From: Gammaproteobacteria bacterium
Lineage (GTDB): Bacteria; Pseudomonadota; Gammaproteobacteria; Nitrococcales; Nitrococcaceae
Direction of reading: 5' to 3'
Assembly: GCA_030433275.1 (NCBI GenBank)
Contig: JAUILK010000005.1
Span: 1-64,000, forward strand
Length of the DNA stretch: 64,000 nucleotides
Shown: positions 1 to 2,630 of the stretch, piece after piece
Numbering within the stretch: position 1 is the stretch's first letter
How the letters are laid out: the number at the start of each line of letters is the position of its first letter
Notes under the pieces: generated by a model
What the model was told of the DNA's origin: nothing
What the model saw: only the letters and a program-made list of their open reading frames with translations
Database searches by the model: none
Program-made: the position numbers and the translations under genes

Positions 1-127
1 GTGCCGGCCCCGTCCAAAGTGCGGTAGAAGACCCGCACCATCTCGGTTGCTGGCTCGGACAAGGTCACCTCGAACTCGAGCTGCCTGTCACTGCCGCCGG
101 TGCCTTCCACCGCCTGACCGCCGGAGA
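1..127 (-). repeat. Copy 2 of a 720-bp-period direct repeat in the Calx-beta gene
   Basis: These bases are identical to 721-847. The copy may continue to the left of the window. It encodes the start of the third Calx-beta unit, in the same reading frame as the first copy (720 is a multiple of three). Confidence 0.95.
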
Positions 128-869
128 TGCTGATCTCGGGCAGCGCCGCGGAGGTGTCATCGTCGAGGATCACGGCCTTGCCCACCGCGCCTTCGACGCT
201 GTTGGCGATCGCCGCAGTGGGGGTGAACACCAGGTTGAAGAACTCGTTGGCTTCGGCCACCGCATCGCCGATGAGCGGCACGGCCACCGCCTTCATGGTC
301 TCGCCCGGGGCGAAGGTCAGCGAGTCGGCGAGCGCCTGGTAGTCGGCGCCGGCCTGGGCCGAGCCGTCGGCGGTGGTATAGTCGAGTGTGATCGCGGTGT
401 CCGAGGGGCGCGAGAGCGTCACTTCGAACAGCGCCTGTTGGCTGCCGTCGTTGCCCTCGACCAGTTGCACGGGGCTGACGAACAGCGCCTGCTTGGCTCC
501 GGTGCCGTCGTCATCGAGGATCACCCCGGTCGCGCGCAGCGTCTCCGCTCCGTTGGCGAACGCGGCGTTGGCGGGGTTAAACAGTTCGACGACCACGCTC
601 TCGTCGGTCTCGGCCAGGTCATCGGGTTCTACCGAAATGTTGAAGCTGGTGCTGCTCTGCCCGGCGTTGATGGTTACAGAGTTGCCCTCTTCGACGAAAT
701 CCACGCCCCCGCCCAGTGCTGTGCCGGCCCCGTCCAAAGTGCGGTAGAAGACCCGCACCATCTCGGTTGCTGGCTCGGACAAGGTCACCTCGAACTCGAG
801 CTGCCTGTCACTGCCGCCGGTGCCTTCCACCGCCTGACCGCCGGAGAGTGAGATAATTGGATCCGCCAT
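1..869 (-). CDS. Calx-beta repeat surface/secreted protein, N-terminal part (runs off window)
   Basis: The minus-strand frame is open from an ATG at 869 to the window edge, 289 codons, and is strongly acidic. The start follows a GGGAG ribosome site 8 bases upstream. The protein reads as successive beta-sandwich units of roughly 110-120 residues. Each unit has a VEGxxGSxxxLxFxVTLS strand, a Y.T.DG segment, an FxPGE or INAGQ turn and a closing VILDDD. This is the signature of Calx-beta domains, which bind calcium and are common in large adhesins and type I secreted proteins. Two complete units are visible (about residues 5-125 and 126-240) and a third begins. No Sec signal peptide is visible, which fits C-terminal type I secretion, but the C-terminus is outside the window. 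The third unit repeats the first at DNA level. The family call is confident; the cellular role is inferred. Confidence 0.85.
   Translation of the reverse strand, partial: MADPIISLSGGQAVEGTGGSDRQLEFEVTLSEPATEMVRVFYRTLDGAGTALGGGVDFVEEGNSVTINAGQSSTSFNISVEPDDLAETDESVVVELFNPANAAFANGAETLRATGVILDDDGTGAKQALFVSPVQLVEGNDGSQQALFEVTLSRPSDTAITLDYTTADGSAQAGADYQALADSLTFAPGETMKAVAVPLIGDAVAEANEFFNLVFTPTAAIANSVEGAVGKAVILDDDTSAALPEISISGGQAVEGTGGSDRQLEFEVTLSEPATEMVRVFYRTLDGAG
721..847 (-). repeat. Copy 1 of a 720-bp-period direct repeat in the Calx-beta gene
   Basis: These bases are identical to 1-127. Identity stops at 848, close to the start codon, so the repeated part begins about 8 codons into the protein. 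Perfect DNA identity, including silent positions, points to recent duplication or gene conversion. Confidence 0.95.
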
Positions 870-1727
870 CTGAATTTTCTCCCTGTTGATTCGTTATTAA
901 GCTTTGGTATTCAGAGATTTGGATTTGGAGCGGTGCATGCCCCGGTTTTCAACACTCACCCTGCGGATGCTTCGTTCCATCGCGAGCGAATGGTTGGTCT
1001 TTATTGTGTGACATGCCGGGCGCCGTATAAGATTAGTTGTTACTTAATCGATCGCCCATGGCACAACATGTAGCATCAAGAGAGTGGAATAGCCAGTTGA
1101 TTTTGAAAAAATTTGTATAAGCTGCTTTTGCAGCGGAGGGGGTTTTTAAAAGCAATATTTAGACCGCTATAATCTTTTTTATAGCCAAACAATACGTTGG
1201 ATTTATAAATGCTCAGTTTGATCGGCCCAGGAAATCAAAAGTGTAAAAAATAACGACGTGAAGCAGTTTATTGATTGGTTATTTTTTCGTCTATCGGCAG
1301 CGTCTTTTCCATTGGGATGACGTGACCGAGGGTTGGAATAGGGGCATTCATTAAGGTACTTCGTGGCCGGATATTCCGGATACGGCGGCGATGGCATGCA
1401 CAGAACAGCAACGCCTGCCACCAGCGTCTACAGGCCTGGATGGCGCGCAAGCTTTATCCTGAGAGTATCGAGCACTCGCAGACTATGGTTTCCATTCAGC
1501 AACACCCGTCGCTCTGCATAAGCTGGGCGTGCGTTTTTTTTGTCTGGGCCATGAGGCACACTTGAGTATGTGCGGGCCGGCTTACCTTGTGATCTATTGT
1601 TGGCTCTGGCGGATACAAAAGCGCGCCGGCTTCATGAGTTCGCCCTTCGGATGATCGACAATAAGCGTTATTTTAGCGAACAATCAGCGAGTTGTGATAA
1701 AAATGATTGCGCCGCCAGGGATTCAGA
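870..1727. other. Long stretch without a recognisable gene
   Basis: About 860 bases lie between the Calx-beta start and the antitoxin stop. The part near 1030-1290 is much richer in A and T than its surroundings. Short open frames occur (for example 1203-1421 minus), but none has a convincing ribosome site or a recognisable protein. Visible structures are a GCTGC-TTTT-GCAGC hairpin at 1121-1134, a 7-bp-arm inverted repeat at 1166-1185 and a 10-bp A/T inverted repeat (1245-1254 with 1278-1287). The region must hold the promoter of the Calx-beta gene, which I cannot place with confidence. Confidence 0.6.
1145..1173 (+). promoter_or_regulatory. Possible sigma-70-like promoter with no gene downstream
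   Basis: A perfect TATAAT (1168-1173) lies 17 bases after TTTAAA (1145-1150), a four-of-six match to the -35 consensus. The -10 is inside an inverted repeat with arms GCTATAA (1166-1172) and TTATAGC (1179-1185). It points into a stretch without an open frame. Chance occurrence in A/T-rich DNA is quite possible. Confidence 0.25.
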
Positions 1728-1976
1728 CTATAGTTGATCGCCTGTCTGCGGCGGGGCGCCGCCCTCGCGCGTCATCAAACGCCGAAACGCCTCTCGGTCG
1801 CCTTTACCTTTGCGTGCCGCAAAGAAACTGGCTGTACGCAAAGCGGCTACCTTCTCGGCGACGGCAGTGGCTACGAACTGATTGAGGCTGGTGCCGTCCG
1901 CGGCTGCTAGCCGTTCGGCTTCGGCCTTGATCGAGGCGGGAAGCCGGAGAGGGTAAGTCGAGCTGCGGGTCTTCAT
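1728..1976 (-). CDS. Ribbon-helix-helix-type antitoxin of a PIN toxin pair
   Basis: This is an 82-residue protein. Its N-terminus (LRLPASIKAEAERLAAADGTSLNQFV, shown here only as a family pattern: a beta strand, then two helices with a TSLNQF turn) fits the ribbon-helix-helix fold of antitoxins that bind DNA as dimers. The C-terminal 40 residues are basic then flexible, the usual toxin-binding tail. Its ATG overlaps the TAA of the upstream PIN toxin by one base, and an AGGAG ribosome site lies 6 bases before it, inside the toxin gene. The two are therefore translationally coupled. The toxin is upstream, the reverse of the commonest toxin-antitoxin order. Neutralisation of the PIN protein is inferred from the gene pair. 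Confidence 0.75.
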   Translation of the reverse strand: MKTRSSTYPLRLPASIKAEAERLAAADGTSLNQFVATAVAEKVAALRTASFFAARKGKGDREAFRRLMTREGGAPPQTGDQL

Positions 1977-2392
1977 TACAATCTCCTAAGTGCTTCTCCC
2001 GGAAGCAGAACATCCAGTTCGAAGGCATCGATTGCTGGTCGGAAGTGCTTTCGATTGAAAGTGACAAGGGCATCGACCTTACCATTGACGGCCGCTTCCA
2101 GAACCAATTCGTCGGTGGGATCTCGTAGTTGCGGCCGCCATAGAAACCAAAGCTCGACAGGCACCACGAGATCCGCGAGGTAGTTTAAAAAGATCGCAAC
2201 GCCACGCTGGTCTAGCCCGGCCGCCAATATGTGTTCCGCCCGCTGGCACACAGCCTCATATTCAAGAAACAGCGGCACGGTCGCCGATAGGGTTGTCCGT
2301 CCCTCGTCGGCCGCCAAAATAAGCGCGGCGGACGCCCCTGTTGGACTGCGCATGGCGGCAACGATGGTATCGGTATCCATTACCACCTTCAT
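1976..2392 (-). CDS. PIN-domain toxin (putative ribonuclease, COG1569 type)
   Basis: This protein of 138 residues from ATG 2392 has the PIN-domain pattern of toxin ribonucleases of the COG1569 group. It starts with a hydrophobic strand ending in an acidic residue (VVMDTD, D6), followed by an acidic LFLEYE helix (E44), a DPTDE motif (D94) and a VDALVTFNRKHF segment (D107). These acidic residues would hold divalent metal ions for RNA cleavage. An in-frame ATG at 2416 would add eight residues, but the family usually begins at the VVMDT strand, so I chose 2392. No clear ribosome site precedes either start, so the message may be leaderless. Palindromes just upstream are likely operators. Confidence 0.8.
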   Translation of the reverse strand: MKVVMDTDTIVAAMRSPTGASAALILAADEGRTTLSATVPLFLEYEAVCQRAEHILAAGLDQRGVAIFLNYLADLVVPVELWFLWRPQLRDPTDELVLEAAVNGKVDALVTFNRKHFRPAIDAFELDVLLPGEALRRL

Positions 2393-2397
2393 ATTGT

Positions 2398-2423
2398 ATA
2401 TGATGTCATATTGCATGCGATAT
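2398..2423. promoter_or_regulatory. Overlapping palindromes at the toxin-antitoxin promoter
   Basis: ATATGA-TG-TCATAT (2398-2411) is a perfect 6+2+6 inverted repeat. ATATTGCATGCGATAT (2408-2423) is a near-perfect palindrome with one mismatched pair. They overlap by four bases and lie immediately upstream of the PIN toxin start. Ribbon-helix-helix antitoxins repress their own operons through such short palindromes. The operator role is inferred. Confidence 0.5.
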
Positions 2424-2630
2424 TATCAATTTCATCATTCTGGTTGCCCAATGATCCGGACCGCAGCCAAGTGAAAGCACGGACAGCTCTCGTGATCGAT
2501 TTTGAGTTTGTCGAAAGGCCGGGATGATGGGGCGGGGCACGTTCAGGAGAATGCGTAATTATTTGGACTTGAACGGCGGTTGGGATGCGTTCGAAATGCA
2601 AGAATTGATCGGAGCCATGGGGGATAGGCG

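Follow-up and report, generated by a model that had tools for sequence, protein, structure and literature searches.

Several groups of large bacterial repeat proteins have been described that resemble the one reported here. For the Periscope Proteins (SasG, Rib, Sgo_0707 and CdrA) it was proposed that identical DNA drives changes in repeat number through intragenic recombination (PMC8201768, PMC9704523). DDxP proteins are large, modular and likely secreted by type I systems, their modules are exchanged by recombination and horizontal transfer, and they are also reported from Nitrosomonas and Nitrosospira (PMC7730722). BapP, LapA and CabC/CabD are large adhesins with arrays of Calx-beta or cadherin-like beta-sandwich domains and act in calcium-dependent adhesion (PMC12153261). 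Identical tandem repeats, recombination and length change are thus already known, and the exchange of modules is known from the DDxP proteins.

We analyzed a stretch of 64,000 nucleotides (the window) that begins at the very start of contig C15 (119,333 bp) in a draft genome of the genus Nitrococcus. Positions 1-869 hold the N-terminal end of the gene for a large, acidic and cysteine-free Calx-beta repeat protein, which would be a type I-exported, calcium-stiffened adhesin or stalk with recombining units. Like the Periscope Proteins, this would be a surface-type protein with tandem, highly identical folded domains. Compared with those proteins, the unit here is a pair of different Calx-beta domains next to type I export genes, of which one domain is exchanged blockwise from genome to genome, and length variation is known between species, with one genome each. 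The large modular build, the likely type I secretion and the recombining modules recall the DDxP proteins (PMC7730722), but the module here is a Calx-beta domain and the DDxP motif was found in 0 of 5 sequences. A large protein with an array of Calx-beta domains is also the common feature with BapP, LapA and CabC/CabD. However, BapP is described with a propeller at its N-terminus and with a Sec signal peptide (PMC12153261), whereas in the window protein the first feature is already a Calx-beta domain and the units are nearly identical. In the open-licence literature we found no paper on Nitrococcus or Nitrosomonas with Calx-beta, and none that combines Calx-beta, type I secretion and tandem repeats.

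One gene on two contigs

The minus-strand frame is open from its ATG to the contig end, and its N-terminus (MADPII-) is the same in the orthologue of Nitrococcus mobilis Nb-231, a member of the same genus. The Calx-beta family (PF03160) matched the frame with two stretches (E 2.8e-28), as expected from the back-to-back Calx-beta frame that the earlier note had read from the letters alone. The scores were 98.7 bits for the window part, 238.8 bits for a second part on contig C3 and 468.9 bits for Nb-231, all above the cut-off of 27. The reported identity of two copies lying 240 codons (720 bp) apart was reproduced exactly (127/127 bases), and the copies diverge from positions 128 and 848 on. This spacing does hold one whole unit, but the unit is not a single kind of repeat: each 240-codon unit consists of two different Calx-beta domains, D1 and D2 (Table 1).

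Table 1. Positions of the repeat gene, its parts and related genes; plain numbers are window positions, L numbers denote loci.
Feature	Position	Strand	Basis
5' part of gene, 289 codons, ATG 869-867, cut by contig end	3-869	-	reading frame
Rest of gene on contig C3, 1143 codons to stop	L005:6297-9728	-	open frame, same genome
D1, first Calx-beta domain of unit 1, 118 codons	504-857	-	PF03160 match, unit alignment
D2, second Calx-beta domain of unit 1, 116 codons	156-503	-	PF03160 match, unit alignment
Start of D1 of next unit, 51 codons including linker TSAALP, cut by contig end	3-155	-	
Repeat copy identical to 721-847	1-127	-	length equals assembler overlap of the assembly
Repeat copy identical to 1-127	721-847	-	direct sequence comparison
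107 bp identical to end of contig C3, last D1 of same gene	562-668	-	
Likely ribosome-binding site AGGGAG, 9 bases before ATG	879-884	-	by eye
Small genes 3' of repeat genes	L005:5376-6131, L006:15853-16647, L007:4854-5549, L008:14077-14730		
C-terminal domain of about 220 aa, conserved	L006:15044-15724, L005:6300-6980, L007:4130-4780, L008:13385-14032		
Clustered long genes with the C-terminal domain	L194, L195 (G447:C44), L197 (G425:C50), L202 (G483:C65)		

Elsewhere in the same genome, the end of contig C3 was the only match of the region. Read in gene direction, C3 starts with the stretch identical to window positions 668-562, and trimming of the contig end by 20 bases could account for its length of 107 instead of 127 bp; further contig ends of this assembly look trimmed too. 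The flanks of C15 and C3 are collinear with one locus of Nb-231. To join the two contigs, 52 bp and a whole number of 720-bp units have to be added, which brings the total to a multiple of three and keeps the frame. The window and C3 hold two parts of one broken gene.

The Nb-231 orthologue is intact (1908 aa): three D1-D2 pairs are followed by one D1-D3 pair, then by six Calx-beta-like repeats, each some 120 aa long, and finally by a C-terminal domain of some 220 aa. From it we read the general layout as (D1-D2)n, D1-D3, six Calx-beta-like repeats and the conserved C-terminal domain. The window strain has an n of 1 or more, and its predicted protein would have 1450 aa, with 240 aa added by every extra unit. 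This strain could carry just the minimal layout D1-D2-D1-D3, with two identical D1, no longer array and a protein of about 1450 aa. Such a layout is seen in the Nitrosomonas genomes Nm51 and Nitrosomonas mobilis, and the missing stretch would then be 52 bp, in frame. We hold this for possible, albeit on the unlikely side, because Nb-231 as the closest relative has three units and a repeat gap of 52 bp would be a small obstacle for a paired-read assembler.

Domain composition, neighbouring genes and probable export

A structure model of D1-D2 (pLDDT 71.5) found its best fold match in the PDB in the tandem calcium-binding domains of NCX1/CALX (CBD12), and the sequence search agreed; the rmsd was high over two domains (about 16-20 A) and about 3-4 A over one. 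Both proteins have two consecutive Calx-beta domains. In NCX1/CALX, however, these are regulatory domains of a eukaryotic ion exchanger, whereas the window protein lacks an exchanger domain. The putative calcium binding, which had been predicted from the sequence, has its support only in the PF03160 family match and the CBD12 fold match. The window and Nb-231 sequences contain no cysteine and 16-17% acidic residues. RTX proteins are recognized by glycine-rich nonapeptide repeats of the pattern GGxGxD. This pattern was absent from all five sequences searched, and we therefore did not file the protein as RTX.

The C-terminal domain gave no Pfam or NCBIfam match (NCBIfam was scanned on the copy of the window genome), and its structure model was poor (pLDDT 47.4). 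It is conserved at four loci (Table 1) and is common to Nitrococcus and Nitrosomonas repeat proteins with differing middles, which consist of Calx-beta, PKD or cadherin-like repeats. In some Nitrosomonas genomes the domain occurs in two or three very long genes that share a contig and lie no more than about 10-20 kb apart.

Directly 3' of the stop codon on C3 lies a small gene with a DUF7901 match (PF25470) and weak matches to PEP-CTERM families. Beyond it, on the opposite strand, we found genes for an HlyD-type adaptor (TIGR01843, 411 bits) and a PrtD-type ABC transporter (TIGR01842, 744 bits), both above cut-off. A TolC-type protein (TIGR01844, 326 bits, above cut-off) is encoded on contig C97. 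The secretion proposed in the earlier note thus gains support, although of the hlyBD/tolC-like genes looked for nearby just the PrtD and HlyD genes adjoin the repeat gene, the TolC gene being located elsewhere. The Nb-231 locus has the same neighbours. In the single-contig Nitrosomonas-type genome G360, no PrtD/HlyD-like gene stands out among the listed open frames around the gene, as judged from the listing. Export by the adjacent PrtD/HlyD-type type I system is probable, judging from gene content.

The small gene also follows the repeat gene in Nm51, where DUF7901 was matched, and in Nitrosomonas mobilis, where it showed weak PEP-CTERM matches and no Pfam match. Hence a small gene of exported type, with DUF7901 and/or a PEP-CTERM-like C-terminus, lies directly 3' in 4/4 loci and forms a conserved pair with the repeat gene. 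On the other side of the gene, window positions 1640-2550 have no counterpart in the otherwise collinear Nb-231 locus. A PIN_3-domain gene is located there (1976-2416, minus strand), probably with a small partner gene just downstream, and the two likely make up a toxin-antitoxin pair that was inserted on the upstream side of the repeat gene. In the same interval, Nb-231 carries a gene for an astacin/matrixin-like metalloprotease (L006:6574-7920).

From its sequence features the protein is probably a calcium-stiffened surface or matrix adhesin (stalk). It would leave the cell through the adjacent PrtD/HlyD-type system, calcium would stiffen the rod, and the protein would act in adhesion or biofilm formation. 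Alternatively, the product might be released freely as a secreted enzyme, toxin or matrix filler. No ligand domain was identified in the protein, and no surface anchor either; the latter would suit free release, as would a paralogue-like gene downstream in Nm51 (L008:14855-21187) that has YD/RHS-like repeats by eye. Free release nevertheless appears unlikely to us, since no catalytic domain was found in the window gene or its orthologue, which have Calx-beta-type domains and one C-terminal domain.

Likeness of the unit copies and probable replacement of D1

Units were searched in 11 genomes, of which 8 matched. Nb-231 has three units of 705 bp, a number that depends on this older draft assembly. 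Units 2 and 3 are identical (705/705), unit 1 has 17 differing positions, 16 of them within the first 28 bases, and unit 4 departs from the pattern at about position 293, where it runs into D3. In G360, a single contig of 3.74 Mb, we found five units of 714 bp followed by D1-D3, with units 2, 4 and 5 identical (714/714). Nm51 (G483) and Nitrosomonas mobilis (G426), which belong to the same genus as G360, have one D1-D2 followed by D1-D3; the Nitrosomonas mobilis gene is split over two frames in the draft. Nb-231 and G360 thus show tandem arrays of folded domains whose DNA is identical to a very high degree over full units, while 127 bp are visible in the window strain. Across species the number of units is 1, 3 and 5, with one genome per species, so that the repeat-number variation predicted earlier is seen between species.

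In a tree of 14 D1 rows, built without the last ~25 codons of D1 and without the last D1 of the window genome (W_D1z_part, 55 codons known), the copies grouped by genome and not by position. A clade of the four position-equivalent last D1 was rejected (log-likelihood 176.5 lower, p-AU 8e-82); the branches between genomes were mostly weak, with 2 of 8 inner branches starred. This clustering by genome, together with the identical 705-bp units of Nb-231, favours the recent duplication or gene conversion that the earlier note had put forward. The copies seem to be kept alike by recombination. Homologous recombination between units, as unequal crossing-over and gene conversion, would change n and at the same time keep the units alike.

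A comparison of the window genome with Nb-231 revealed that D1 departs from the rest of the gene. In D1 the amino acid identity was 0.64 (dS 0.70, dN 0.27), whereas D2, D3 and the C-terminal domain showed identities of 0.95-0.97 (dS 0.17-0.24, dN 0.015-0.024). Within the D1-D2 unit and the D1-D3 part, the drop in identity is confined to D1. Differences at fourfold sites, counted within identical codon families, were found at 19/41 sites in D1 compared to 32/260 in D2, D3 and the C-terminal domain (Fisher p 1.5e-6) and 110/558 in prtD and hlyD (p 2.4e-4). Silent divergence was also high in the six repeats after D3 (162/360), possibly because repeats were compared that do not correspond to each other. 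In the window genome, the first D1 is identical to as much as can be seen of the second (127 bp) and of the last (107 bp), and the D1 copies of Nb-231 agree among themselves nearly as well. Since the D1 copies are alike within each genome, the change probably spread through each array. The comparison points to a divergent D1 that was probably imported and then spread through the array. A divergent D1 allele would occasionally enter an array and then be copied into every unit.

The array of G360 contains two D1 alleles. Unit 3 differs from unit 2 by 23 positions, all located at unit positions 119-206, with no difference elsewhere in the 714 bases; over the same positions the last D1 combines patches of both forms. 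It is possible that this array represents an intermediate of D1 replacement. A profile of the unit gave 6 matches in G360, all inside the gene and none outside, and we therefore infer that the second D1 allele probably came from another strain.

Rapid diversifying selection on the site, instead of import, could have produced the D1 difference between the two Nitrococcus. It would account for the high dN in D1, and a joint D1 clade of both genomes was not rejected (p-AU 0.33). We regard selection as quite unlikely, though: silent divergence is raised as well (dS 0.70 versus about 0.2, and the fourfold sites given above), which amino acid selection does not explain, and dN/dS in D1 is 0.39 and hence below 1. 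The import of a divergent D1 is the reading that we prefer. Nitrosomonas as the donor of the window-strain D1 found no backing: the joint clade with the Nb-231 D1 is not rejected, and the window D1 DNA is closer to Nb-231 (0.72) than to Nitrosomonas mobilis (0.60).

The length of 127 bp has a technical origin. The window-strain assembly comprises 3.41 Mb in 104 contigs, and we surveyed the starts and ends of all of them (208 ends). After 27 ends that read N were set aside, 181 were left, and 128 of these had an exact run in common with another compared place. This sharing is a lower bound, as long contigs entered the comparison with their first 20 kb and their ends. The run ended at exactly base 127 of the contig end in 35 of the 128 cases and at 126-128 in 49, beyond base 128 in 10 only and at base 99 in 8; each other value from 90 to 125 had about 1.2 cases. 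SPAdes commonly has 99 and 127 among its k values. A pile-up at 127 is what a de Bruijn assembler leaves behind when k = 127, and 127 bp is therefore only a lower bound on the true identity. Consequently, we rejected 127 bp as a biological repeat length. Contigs C27, C29, C37, C38, C43, C54, C61, C62, C65, C72-C74, C76 and part of C40 were masked with N, and repeat units there would be invisible.

The earlier note had allowed for an assembly error, and this caution applies to the length of the repeat, an assembler constant, but not to the repeat itself. The repeat is real, because the assembler stopped at a k-mer present more than once and because D2 enters the second D1 through a linker that is absent from the first. 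That the duplication is a pure artefact, with the contig end repeating a stretch that is single in the genome, is very improbable and already largely refuted: the repeat does lie at a contig end and matches the assembler overlap exactly, but the reading from D2 into the new D1 is unbroken through the linker TSAALPEIS, found at the same place in Nb-231, C3 has the far end of a D1 that is identical over 107 bp but leads into D3, giving at least two D1, and several units are present in Nb-231 and in the single-contig genome G360.

Distribution of the family

We searched for the family with a profile of the C-terminal domain (A1) in samples of the class, order, family and phylum, which overlap. 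In the order, 2 of 54 genomes matched, namely those of the window strain and Nb-231; in the Nitrosomonas family there were 9 of 125, all from one genus, with one match weak and containing stops. The class sample gave matches in 3 of 369 genomes, the window genome included and one of them weak. Six of the 398 genomes in the phylum sample matched, four of them weakly or at a middling level; only the window genome and G360 were strong there, and G899 was middling with 133 bits. A family general in the class was rejected on these counts. In a pattern search with the window part, which reaches close relatives only and may leave out the window's own genome, the collection of species genomes yielded four loci, one of them in Nb-231, two in Nitrosomonas and one in a distant Blastocatellia.

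Three other genomes of the same genus (G002-G004; 190-660 contigs) lacked a match to the A1 profile, the partner gene and a close PrtD. For repeats, this absence could be an effect of the draft assemblies. However, the non-repetitive partner gene was found in 2 of 5 genomes, and the best PrtD-like match in G002-G004 was a paralogue with 51% identity. As the partner gene and a close PrtD are missing too, the repeat-gene locus looks accessory in the genus, going by these gene inventories.

Calx-beta pairs that are more distantly related are common: 63 plasmid records (Azospirillum, Cereibacter and others) contain a sequence akin to the window part at less than 60% identity. The Rhodobacterales plasmid relatives of the unit reached 43% identity at best, and two of them had no long identical runs at any spacing tested. 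One distant relative on a Rhodovulum plasmid (43%, L221:3576-8501) has IS1634-family transposases on both sides, which is a possible mobilising route for such genes.

In the samples searched, the family is rare and patchy and occurs mainly in two nitrifier genera of different orders, the nitrite oxidiser Nitrococcus and the ammonia oxidiser Nitrosomonas, which suggests horizontal transfer. A far-reaching and highly doubtful idea is that D1 serves as a swappable recognition cassette. Divergent alleles from other strains would be copied to all units, so that the rod shows one specificity at a time, perhaps for the recognition of kin or partners in nitrifying aggregates.

For the reading of draft genomes, the locus is a caution that exact repeat lengths at contig ends may be assembler constants. 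For the family, it presents concerted evolution with a sharp block structure, in which one domain of a two-domain unit is replaced and spread through the array while its neighbours stay at ordinary divergence, and the Nitrosomonas-type array of G360 appears caught midway. This block replacement of D1 and the sharing of the family between ammonia oxidisers and nitrite oxidisers, of which one lives off the product of the other, are what stand out here.
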